NCBI GenBank assembly: GCA_026706485.1
Contig: JAPOYR010000007.1
Location: 1-64,000, forward strand
Source of the DNA: Chloroflexota bacterium
GTDB lineage: Bacteria > Chloroflexota > UBA11872
Direction of reading: 5' to 3'
Length of the DNA: 64,000 nucleotides
Shown: positions 16,172-62,925 of the stretch, one piece after another
Position numbering within the stretch: the stretch's first letter is position 1
Layout: each line of letters starts with the position of its first letter
Position numbers and translations under genes: made by a program
Notes under the pieces: model-generated
Database searches by the model: none
What the model was told of the DNA's origin: nothing
Seen by the model: only the letters and a program-made list of their open reading frames with translations

Positions 16172-16445
16172 CCCCCGCGCCGACAACTGAGACCATTGAA
16201 CACAGGAGTGAGGGCGACGCATGCGTCGCCCCTACGCATGGGGTCACGGGTTGAGCGGCCGCTGAATCGCCGCCTTCCGAGACCTTTGCAGAATCCAGCC
16301 GGGCTTGGGGATGACCGGGCGCATCCTGTCCGATCCCAGGTTCAACGAATGGTGGATTCCCGCCTTCGCGGGAATGACGAAGGGTTACGCAAAGGTCTCC
16401 CCGTATCCCGTACGGGGCAGGCTCCCCGTCGGAATGACTGAGGGC
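16172..16445. repeat. Intergenic repeats after the bifunctional nuclease gene
   Basis: The stretch holds a perfect palindrome GGGCGACGCATGCGTCGCCC (16212-16231, family E, same core as 4160-4187), a family C element GATTCCCGCCTTCGCGGGAA followed by TGACG (about 16354-16379), and CCCCGTATCCCGTACGGGGC (about 16400). It lies between convergent genes, so these hairpins may act in transcript ends. Confidence 0.75.
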
Positions 16446-21047: not shown

Positions 21048-21154
21048 TCGAGCCGCCGCGCGGTTGGCCTTTGTGAGGCAAAGGCCCTACCTTCTGTGGC
21101 GATGACGTGGGCGATGGGATCCCCTCGGCCGGTCCCGCCCGGAGGCTGCGCGGC

Positions 21155-22258
21155 ATGAGCAACGACTTGCGGAACGTGGATGTCGCGATCGTCGGCGGCG
21201 GCATCGTGGGCTGTGCAGTGGCGCTGGCCGCGCGTCGCGCCGGACTCACGGCGGCGATCCTGGAGCGCGGACGCATCTGCGGCGAGGCGTCGTCCGTGGC
21301 GGCGGGGCTCATCTGCGGGCAGTACGACGCCGACGGAGACTCGCCGCTGGTCCGGCTGCGATTGGCGGGACGCGACGGATTTCCCGAATTCGCAGAGCTC
21401 TTGGAAGCGCTCGGCGGCGCTCCGGTCGGCTATCTCCCGGGCCCCACCATGGGCGTCGCCCTGACGGACGACGAGCGCGAGCGACTCTTGGCGCGCGTCG
21501 CCGCACAGCGGGAAGCCGGTTTCGACGTCGAGTTCCTCGAACCGGACGAAGCGCGACGTCGCGAGCCTGTGCTGGCGCCTGATGTCACCGGCGCGGCCAT
21601 CTACCCGGACGGGCAGGTCGACACGCATCGATGGGCGCCGATCGTGCATCGCGCGGTCCTGGCGGCGGGCGTGGACGTGCACCTGGGCGCGGAGGTCGTG
21701 GCGATCTCGGGCGGCGCCAGTGCGGCGGTGCGAACCGTGCGCGGCACGGTCAGCGCGGACCACGTCGTGCTGGCCACGGGTCCCTGGGCGCGCGAGCTGC
21801 TTCCCTGGGTTCCCGTCGTCCCGTCCAAGGGGCACATCATCACCTTCGAAGCGCCCAATCTCCGCACGCGCCACGTCATCCACCGGCCCGCCGGCACGCT
21901 GAGCCAGCGATCGGATGGGCGCTTGATCTTCGGCGCCACCAAGGAGCGCGCGGGTTTCGACCGGCGGGTGCGGGCAGGTGCGATCGAGTCGCTGCTCCGC
22001 GCCGCCTCGGCGGGGGTCCCCGGGTTGGCGGACGGAACGCTCACGGGGATTCTGACGGGATTTCGTCCGGACTCCGAGGACGGCCTGCCGTTGATCGGGC
22101 GCGATTCTCGGAGCGGGGTGATGCTCGCGACCGGCCATCACACCCACGGCGTCACGATGAGCTGGCTGACGGGACAGATCGTGGCCCGTCTGCTGACCGG
22201 CGAAGATCCCGGCTACCCGATTGCGCCGTTCAGTCCCGATCGGTTGAGCGATCGTTAG
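21155..22258 (+). CDS. FAD-dependent oxidoreductase (DAO/glycine oxidase family)
   Basis: 367 residues from ATG 21155, with GGAGG 9 nt upstream. The dinucleotide-binding motif is VDVAIVGGGIVGCAVALAARRAG. Later blocks LATGPWARELLPWVPVVPSKGH and TGFRPDSEDGLPLIG ... TGHHTHGVTMSW match D-amino acid or glycine oxidases and ThiO. No thi genes are nearby, so the amine substrate is open. It stands alone, with repeats on both sides. Confidence 0.85.
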   Translation: MSNDLRNVDVAIVGGGIVGCAVALAARRAGLTAAILERGRICGEASSVAAGLICGQYDADGDSPLVRLRLAGRDGFPEFAELLEALGGAPVGYLPGPTMGVALTDDERERLLARVAAQREAGFDVEFLEPDEARRREPVLAPDVTGAAIYPDGQVDTHRWAPIVHRAVLAAGVDVHLGAEVVAISGGASAAVRTVRGTVSADHVVLATGPWARELLPWVPVVPSKGHIITFEAPNLRTRHVIHRPAGTLSQRSDGRLIFGATKERAGFDRRVRAGAIESLLRAASAGVPGLADGTLTGILTGFRPDSEDGLPLIGRDSRSGVMLATGHHTHGVTMSWLTGQIVARLLTGEDPGYPIAPFSPDRLSDR

Positions 22259-22452
22259 CTTCCCGCCGTCGGAAACCTCTGCACAGACTGTCGACATCCC
22301 ACGCCCGAGCGCCGGATCACCCTCACCCTAGCCCTCTCCCATCAAGGGAGAGGGGACCGGACCTGCTCCCACCGACTGTGAGATGTCCAAACTCGATTCC
22401 GGCCTTCGCCGGAATGACGGAGGGGTTCGCGACGGTCCCCATTACGGCGATT
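22259..22452. repeat. Intergenic repeats between convergent genes
   Basis: The gap holds a family A unit (22318-22360, CCTCACCCTAGCCCTCTCCC plus reverse arm) and a family C unit (22395-22420, GATTCCGGCCTTCGCCGGAA plus TGACGG). It lies between the FAD oxidoreductase and polX, which face each other. Confidence 0.75.
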
Positions 22453-24198
22453 CTATCGATGTGGCGACCAGCGCCGCGGCTTTGGTTGGCTCAGCCACGC
22501 CGTCAGGGCCTCCGGCGCCATGGTGTTGAGCACGTCGCCGGCGGTGAGCCACGCGCGGCGAGCCGTGGCGACGCCGTAGCGCATGTAGGCCAGGCTTTCG
22601 GGGCGGTGAGCGTCGGAGTTGATGGCAATGGGCACCCCCAGCTCCTTGGCCCGGCGTGCCATCACGTCGTCCAGGTCGAGTCGCTCCGGTGAGGCGTTGA
22701 TTTCCATGGCCGTGCCGGTCTCGGTGGTCGCCGTATCATTAAAAAAAAAAACGAACTCGTAGCCGTCGCGGTAGCCGAGCATGCGCCCCGTGGGATGGCC
22801 GATCACGTCCACGTGGGGGTTGCGAATCGCCGCGATCAGCCGCGCCGTCATGGCCTCGCGCGGCTGATTGAAGTTGCTGTGAATCGACGCCACCACGACG
22901 TCGAGCTCGGCCAACAGGTCGTCGTCGTAGTCAAGAGCGCCGTCGCTCAGAATCTCGACCTCGCTGCCGTGCAGCACCCGAATGCCGGAAACATTGGCCC
23001 TCGCCTGCTCGATTTCGTCCCGCTGCGCCGTGATTCGCTCCGGCGACAGGCCGTTGGCGACCTGCAAGCTGCCCGAGTGGTCCGTGATGCCGATGAAGGC
23101 GTATCCGGCGGCCTGCGCCGCCTGCACCATATCGGCGATCGACGCCGCGCCGTCGCTCCAGAGTGAATGCCCGTGGAACTCACCGCGGATGTCGGACAGC
23201 TCGATGAGCTCGGGCAGCGAGCCGTCCGCCGCCGCGGCAACCTCGCCGCGGCTCTCGCGAAGCTCGGGCGGAATCACGGGCAATCCGAGGGCCGCGTAGA
23301 CATCGGCCTCGCTGGGCGCGGGCCGGCGCACCTGGGTCTCGACCTCATCCAGCCCCCACTCGTTGAGCGACAGGCCCAATGCCAGCGCGCGGTGCCGCAA
23401 CTCGATGTTGTGCTCCTTCGACCCGGTGAAGTAGACCAGCGCCGCGCCGTAACTGTTCGGCGGCACCACCAGCAGATCGACCTGGAGATTGTTGGCCACC
23501 AGCACGCTGGATTTGGTCGAGCCCGACGCCAGCACCTCGTCGATGGCCTCGTGGTCGAGGAAGTGGCGCATCACCGGGTCGGGGTCGTCGGCGGCGGCCA
23601 GGATGTCCAGGTCGCCAATGGTCTCCCGCATCCGGCGCAGGCTGCCGGCGCAGGTCGCCTCGGATACGCCGGGTGCCGCGCGAACGTGGGCCGCGAGGTG
23701 CTCCGCCAGCGGCAGCACGTCGCCCAGCAGGTGGCGCGCGGTGCGTTCGCGGAAGCGCTGCAGCTCGCGCAGGAGGCGTTCCTGCCGCTTGGCGCCGATG
23801 CTGCGCACCTGCGCCAACTCGTTCGCTCGCGCCGCCGCTTCCAACTCGTCGATGCTGGTGATCTCCAGCTTCGTGTAGAGCGTGGCCGCGGTCTTGGGGC
23901 CGAGGCCGGGCACTCGCAGCATGTCGAAGACGCCGGGCGGAATCTCGGCCCGCAATTCCTCGTATTCCGCGACGCTGCCGGTGGTCACGAGCTCGCGCAG
24001 GAATCCCGCAATGCCCTTGCCGATGCCCGGCACCGACTCCAGCGAATCGCTCGCGACCAACTCGCCCAGGTCGACGGTTAGCCCGTCCACCCGGCGCGAA
24101 GCCGTGCGAAACGCCCGCACGCGAAACTGATTGGCGCCGCGGAGCTCCAGCACGTCCGCGAATGCTTCCAGCAGATCGGCCGCGTCCTTGTTTGTCAT
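22453..24198 (-). CDS. polX: DNA polymerase/3'-5' exonuclease PolX
   Basis: 581 residues from ATG 24198 (MTNKDAADLLEAFADVLELRG). Family X repair polymerase: two helix-hairpin-helix segments (SVPGIGKGIAGFL, RVPGLGPKTAATLY), the nucleotidyl-transfer aspartates in ETIGDLDILAA and NNLQVDLLVV, and FTGSKEHNIELR. A C-terminal PHP exonuclease domain starts EFHGHSLWSDG and ends INSDAHRP. Residues after YRDGYEF are abnormal: FVFFFNDTATTE is the translation of an oligo-T run plus the Illumina P5 adapter, in place of the family's own residues, with the length kept. The gene is otherwise intact. Confidence 0.92.
   Translation of the reverse strand: MTNKDAADLLEAFADVLELRGANQFRVRAFRTASRRVDGLTVDLGELVASDSLESVPGIGKGIAGFLRELVTTGSVAEYEELRAEIPPGVFDMLRVPGLGPKTAATLYTKLEITSIDELEAAARANELAQVRSIGAKRQERLLRELQRFRERTARHLLGDVLPLAEHLAAHVRAAPGVSEATCAGSLRRMRETIGDLDILAAADDPDPVMRHFLDHEAIDEVLASGSTKSSVLVANNLQVDLLVVPPNSYGAALVYFTGSKEHNIELRHRALALGLSLNEWGLDEVETQVRRPAPSEADVYAALGLPVIPPELRESRGEVAAAADGSLPELIELSDIRGEFHGHSLWSDGAASIADMVQAAQAAGYAFIGITDHSGSLQVANGLSPERITAQRDEIEQARANVSGIRVLHGSEVEILSDGALDYDDDLLAELDVVVASIHSNFNQPREAMTARLIAAIRNPHVDVIGHPTGRMLGYRDGYEFVFFFNDTATTETGTAMEINASPERLDLDDVMARRAKELGVPIAINSDAHRPESLAYMRYGVATARRAWLTAGDVLNTMAPEALTAWLSQPKPRRWSPHR
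22719..22751 (-). other. Illumina P5 adapter remnant and homopolymer (assembly artefact)
   Basis: On the minus strand, T11 (22751-22741) is followed by AATGATACGGCGACCACCGA and GA (22740-22719), which equals the first 22 bases of the Illumina P5 adapter. The match ends where the adapter would continue TCTACAC and the gene continues CCGGC. The true bases of polX here are unknown. Confidence 0.95.
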
Positions 24199-24350
24199 GC
24201 TCGTTCGCGCATCTCGTCCACCGATCTCGGGCGGTTCCGGCGATTGCCGTGGCGTTGCATTCTCACCGAATCCCTGACAGCGCGCGCAATCGGACGCGGC
24301 AGCGGGACGCTCGACATCGTGGTTGCACGACGCCATGCTAGGCGGCGACT

Positions 24351-62823: not shown

Positions 62824-62925
62824 AATCACCCTCACCCCGGCCCTCTCCCGTCGAGGGAGAGGGGGGCGGATGACCCTCACCTCAGCCCTCTCCCTTCCAG
62901 GGAGAGGGAGTCGGGCGGCAATCGA
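62824..62925. repeat. Two family A repeats between the GHL10-like genes
   Basis: Two units: CCTCACCCCGGCCCTCTCCC...GGGAGAGG and CCTCACCTCAGCCCTCTCCC...GGGAGAGG. The strong GAGGAGG ribosome-binding site of the next gene follows directly. Confidence 0.85.

Follow-up and report, generated by a model that had tools for sequence, protein, structure and literature searches.

Introduction

In the passages of PMC11123353 that print it for surface amplification, the Illumina P5 surface primer is given as ten T followed by AATGATACGGCGACCACCGAGA, a T10-P5 oligonucleotide ending in GAGA. During the paired-end turnaround, the grafted P5 oligonucleotide loses its 3′-phosphate and is then extended (PMC10963267). 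Illumina adapter-derived sequence has been kept in published bacterial genomes and MAGs, where such contamination is common, and a screen using AGATCGGAAGAG found its matches mostly at contig ends (Moeller et al., 2024; PMC11536531). In PMC3163567, the term “mispriming” refers to sequencing primers only. Our search of the literature returned no report of flow-cell mispriming of the kind considered below, and no printed copy of the U-containing P5 sequence turned up. The grafted oligonucleotide carries a cleavable U and a T10 spacer; we take base 22 of P5 to be its 3′ end after cleavage at this U, base 29 being the 3′ end of the intact grafted oligonucleotide.

Here we describe a P5 copy embedded in a bacterial gene for DNA polymerase X (polX). 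It lies in the window, by which we mean the whole 64,000-nucleotide stretch of Chloroflexota contig JAPOYR010000007.1 that was analysed.

Results

A P5 block within polX

The features at the locus are as follows.

22453–24336, minus strand: polX, bacterial DNA polymerase X with a PHP domain, longest ORF of 627 aa (from the ORF and from NCBIfam, Pfam and PDB matches)
22719–22740, minus strand: P5 copy, first 22 bases (AATGATACGGCGACCACCGAGA); exact match, 0 expected, sole copy in the genome
22741–22751, minus strand: T11, taken to be the grafted P5 oligonucleotide's T10 spacer plus one; sole A10/T10 run in the genome
22719–22724, minus strand: CCGAGA, common to P5 and the closest congener G005, which has ACGGCGGCCGCCGAGA; this stretch contains or borders the priming-side junction
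22725–22751, minus strand: 27 untrustworthy bases, native polX codons having been replaced in register (from comparison with G005)

A first-pass annotation of the DNA had claimed that T11 and 22 bases identical to P5 are embedded at 22719–22751 in the PHP domain of polX, and both the block and its setting were confirmed. AATGATACGGCGACCACCGAGA, representing bases 1–22 of P5, is matched exactly (22/22) at 22719–22740 on the minus strand, where 100 shuffles gave an expectation of 0. Directly 5′ of this copy on the minus strand lies a T11 run at 22741–22751 (A11 on the plus strand; 0 expected). With the 18-mer start of P5 and up to 2 mismatches, 22719–22740 is the only P5-like site in the genome (13 contigs, 3.37 Mb), and the A11/T11 is likewise the only A10/T10 run in these 3.37 Mb; the G+C content of the window is 68%. 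P7 gave no match in the same 13 contigs, and the usual adapter start, AGATCGGAAGAGC, gave 0 exact matches within the 64-kb window. The block is contig-internal, more than 22 kb from the start of its contig (C7). It is translated as EFVFFFNDTATTETGTA, and the reading frame of polX is open across it. The P5 copy stops one base before what we take to be the cleavable U of the grafted oligonucleotide. Moreover, the T11 agrees with the T10 spacer that the P5 oligonucleotide has when grafted to the surface, and is hence not incidental.

The real gene under the block is an ordinary polX. Its product reaches 543 bits with NF006375, the PolX equivalog model of NCBIfam (cut-off 426), and carries the Pfam domains HHH_8, HHH_5, DNA_pol_B_thumb and PHP, so that the HHH, polymerase X thumb and PHP domains of bacterial PolX are found in one protein. 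The block falls in the PHP-domain part, and the match to PolX from T. thermophilus (PDB 3au2; E=5.5e-131, 570 residues aligned) has no gap at this place. Loss of the polX frame was considered and is wrong, the frame being open with or without the block. Family similarity begins at residue 47 (MTNKDAADL), which is probably the true start; the first 46 residues correspond to 24199–24336.

An FAD-oxidoreductase-like ORF (21107–22258, named from its sequence only) adjoins polX. A short palindromic repeat, ATTCCGGCCTTCGCCGGAATGACGG, is present at 22396–22420 and 16356–16380, with one copy between polX and this ORF. When as many as 3 mismatches are allowed, the genome has 130 copies (control, 0), and the repeats are best read as a REP-like intergenic family. 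A second palindrome family, CCCTCTCCC-N5-GGGAGAGGG, has three copies in the window, at 22332–22354, 62841–62863 and 62886–62908 (0 expected).

Native codons are overwritten, not displaced

The first-pass annotation had advised a comparison with polX of relatives. Five genomes of the same genus have EFDLDAVLTAAAETGT (in one genome, EFDVDAVFTAAAETGT) at the place where the window has EFVFFFNDTATTETGT; native DLDAVLTAAA-type codons stand at the site in all five, and the P5 string is present in none of them (0/5). Compared with the closest congener, G005, the block differs at 18 of its 33 bases and the sequence outside it at 109 of 1848, and the two polX genes align with no gap over the whole gene. 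The alignment across the block is gap-free for the five congeners and for 28 of 29 relatives. Length at the block is thus kept relative to the five congeners and to T. thermophilus PolX (3au2), and the frame is open, in agreement with the earlier statement that length is preserved against the family. Since the alignment with the congeners is gap-free, an insertion of 33 bases is ruled out, and the 33 bases have overwritten native codons without pushing them apart. The provably foreign part amounts at most to 22725–22751, because G005 has GCCGAGA at the 22719–22724 edge.

The native site of G005, ACGGCGGCCGCCGAGA, agrees with ACGGCGACCACCGAGA, the 3′ part of the cut P5, at 14 of 16 bases, the last six being exact. 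Sites with up to 2 mismatches to this 16-mer of the cut oligonucleotide's 3′ end number 16 in the 3.2-Mb genome of G005, the window's site included. For the window's own DNA, the chance that at least 8 of the last 10 oligonucleotide bases match is 0.0008.

The same string in other public assemblies

Among GTDB contigs, at least 120 stretches contain the string of T8 followed by the 22 P5 bases, as do 82 stretches of viral contigs. When 400 genomes were drawn evenly from the phylum, 5 had the string, 3 of them well inside a contig (the window's genome included). The peptide FFFNDTATTE had been called a known contamination signature; the underlying DNA string does recur as described, but our search of the literature returned no paper with such a peptide signature.

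Fetched P5 copies were sorted by position into internal copies, flanked on either side by 200 nt or more of locus (n=20), and copies near the end of the locus (n=194), the end of a fetched locus being mostly a contig end. The complete 58-base adapter (P5 plus the sequencing-primer part) is present in 123 of the 194 near-end copies, which is what simple read-through would leave. Among the internal copies, P5 stops at base 29–30 in 13/20, at base 22–24 in 5/20 (window included) and at base 25–28 in 0/20, and the T run is T10–11 in 17/20; the two copies with other end points are L056, with the full 58 bases, and L199, with 44. A separate scan requiring just 15 P5 bases revealed no joins before P5 base 22.

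P7 copies in viral contigs show the same T10 pattern. In the interior of one viral contig (L299, 7361–7391), T10 is followed by P7 cut after 21 bases, and base 21 directly precedes the 8-oxoG of grafted P7. This copy may be for P7 what the U-cut copies are for P5; no close relative spanned the block.

Public genes with false segments include those for a sugar isomerase-like protein (L087), an NDUFA9-like protein (L102), a uracil permease (L065) and RmlA (L138), and further those for a phage protein (L133), a PCu(A)C copper chaperone (L098) and a phage D12-like nuclease (L142). The segments in all seven are ascribed to the same artefact.

Internal copies compared with relatives lacking the block

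Internal copies were set against relatives without the P5 block. In L142 (T10 plus 29 bases of P5), 39 bases are overwritten in register with respect to seven relatives, and the closest of these, L357, with flanks ∼95–96% identical, has native GATCTACAC, the last nine bases of the intact oligonucleotide. In G294, P5 stops after GAGA and is followed by native TC; this block is gap-free against three congeners, and one of these natively has CCACCGAGA, the last nine bases of the cut 22-mer. G103, which like the window has T11 and 22 bases, aligns without a gap to seven relatives; native ACCGAGA is found in one of the seven (L712), others matching at 4/10. L141 (T10 plus 22 bases) is gap-free against L609, which matches the 3′ end of the 22-mer at just 6/10. 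Furthermore, a gap-free overwrite was seen at the DNA level for L133 and L138 and at the protein level for L138, L065, L087 and L098, with L102 showing a 3-residue length difference from a remote homologue. In most cases checked, the native DNA agrees with the 3′ end of the oligonucleotide at the junction.

Discussion

It is practically certain that the 33 bases are an artefact and not part of the genome. The first-pass annotation had reached the same verdict, which is borne out by the P5 copy being the only one in the genome, by the native codons in 5/5 congeners and by the occurrence of the string in unrelated assemblies. That the strain itself carries the block is barely conceivable: the frame is open through it, which would suit real DNA, but the sequence and its spacer are an exact man-made string, identical to strings in unrelated genomes, and no congener has it at this site, which is conserved in a protein that is itself conserved.

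Several marks of Illumina P5 occur together in the block, namely an exact P5, a spacer of about ten T directly 5′ and a P5 ending at base 22. The block is also absent in close relatives but present in unrelated assemblies, overwrites in register and has a native match at the junction (G005). The marks of adapter read-through at a contig end are lacking, as the AGATCGGAAGAGC motif is absent from the window and the site is contig-internal.

Mispriming on the flow cell is, with good confidence, the origin we propose for the block. In the closest relative, G005, the native DNA at this site is similar to the 3′ portion of a P5 that ends ahead of the U (ACGGCGGCCGCCGAGA against ACGGCGACCACCGAGA). 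In the paired-end turnaround, the grafted T10-AATGATACGGCGACCACCGAGA would prime inside the insert instead of at the adapter, leaving truncated strands in the cluster. A read towards P5 would then consist of genome, followed by TCTCGGTGGTCGCCGTATCATT and by about ten A from the spacer, at which point the truncated template would stop; from there the full-length strands of the cluster would dominate, and the read would re-enter the genome in register. What stands in the assembly is the native length with P5 and T10–11 in place of native bases and without the sequencing-primer part. If this mechanism is right, the P5 artefact is to be expected in read 2 only. Some cases speak against it: L609, the relative of L141, and relatives of G103 other than L712 match the 3′ end poorly, L102 differs in length from a remote homologue, and L056 and L199 keep 58 and 44 bases.

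We also think it likely that the artefact is a recurrent, site-directed one arising at the level of the read, in which grafted P5, either intact or U-cut, misprimes in inserts, so that T10 plus 22 or 29 bases are overwritten in register; the grafted P7 oligonucleotide probably misprimes likewise. Priming by the grafted oligonucleotide inside the insert would account for the T10–11, the two end points (22 and 29) and the 3′ match, as well as for the unchanged length and the absence of the sequencing-primer part. With an artefact of this kind, produced on the flow cell, one would understand why the overwrite is in register, why P5 stops at base 22, why the primer part is missing and why the pattern recurs in unrelated genomes.

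Two other routes to such a block were weighed. Untrimmed read-through could leave a contig ending in P5 and poly-A, which an assembler or gap filler then joined through short shared bases. Contaminating adapter is frequent in public assemblies and clusters towards contig ends (PMC11536531), and CCGAGA is common to both sides at one edge, as the first-pass annotation had pointed out (GCCGAGA in G005). These shared bases are real, but the fusion by the assembler that was read from them leaves unexplained the in-register overwrite, the stop at base 22, the missing sequencing-primer part and the recurrence in unrelated genomes. A join of this type should leave more adapter, whereas the 36 insert-adjacent bases are missing; it should stop anywhere in P5, whereas internal copies stop at base 22–24 or 29–30; and it should rarely keep length, whereas most internal copies compared overwrite in register. 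Moreover, an assembler normally needs an overlap longer than the six shared bases, and we consider such a join unlikely.

Less likely still is a correct assembly over which polishing or mapping wrote adapter tails gap-free. Length would be kept here too, and an assembly of only 13 contigs may have been curated or polished. However, the pattern recurs across many independent assemblies, for which a common polishing step is improbable, and P5 cut short at base 22 would still have to be present in the reads, so that the mispriming step is needed under this explanation as well.

For the window's genome, the consequence is that about 9–10 PolX residues, encoded by 22725–22751, are not to be trusted. 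Because the standard adapter motif (AGATCGGAAGAG) is absent, the block would be missed by ordinary trimmers and database screens. Artefacts of this class leave contigs unbroken and frames unshifted and place plausible-looking false protein segments in family alignments; if the reading is true, they persist in public genomes as segments such as FFFNDTATTE or LGGRRIIKKK. A simple screen for T9–11 followed by P5 (22 or 29 bases), or by P7, would flag them, and from the in-register rule curators can tell that bases were replaced and none added. The block means nothing as biology; as an error class it merits a database screen.

Set beside the known systems, the block shares with the grafted P5 surface primer, as printed in the relevant part of PMC11123353, the order T10 then AATGATACGGCGACCACCGAGA, although the sequence there is a designed primer and not a contaminant, and the window has T11. 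Like the database contamination described previously (PMC11536531), it is adapter-derived sequence in a published microbial genome, but it lacks the AGATCGGAAGAG motif, lies more than 22 kb inside its contig and keeps the length of the gene. Outside the block, the gene is an ordinary bacterial PolX (NCBIfam PRK08609; PDB 3au2) with HHH, thumb and PHP domains, from which it differs in that the residues encoded by 22725–22751 are not native.
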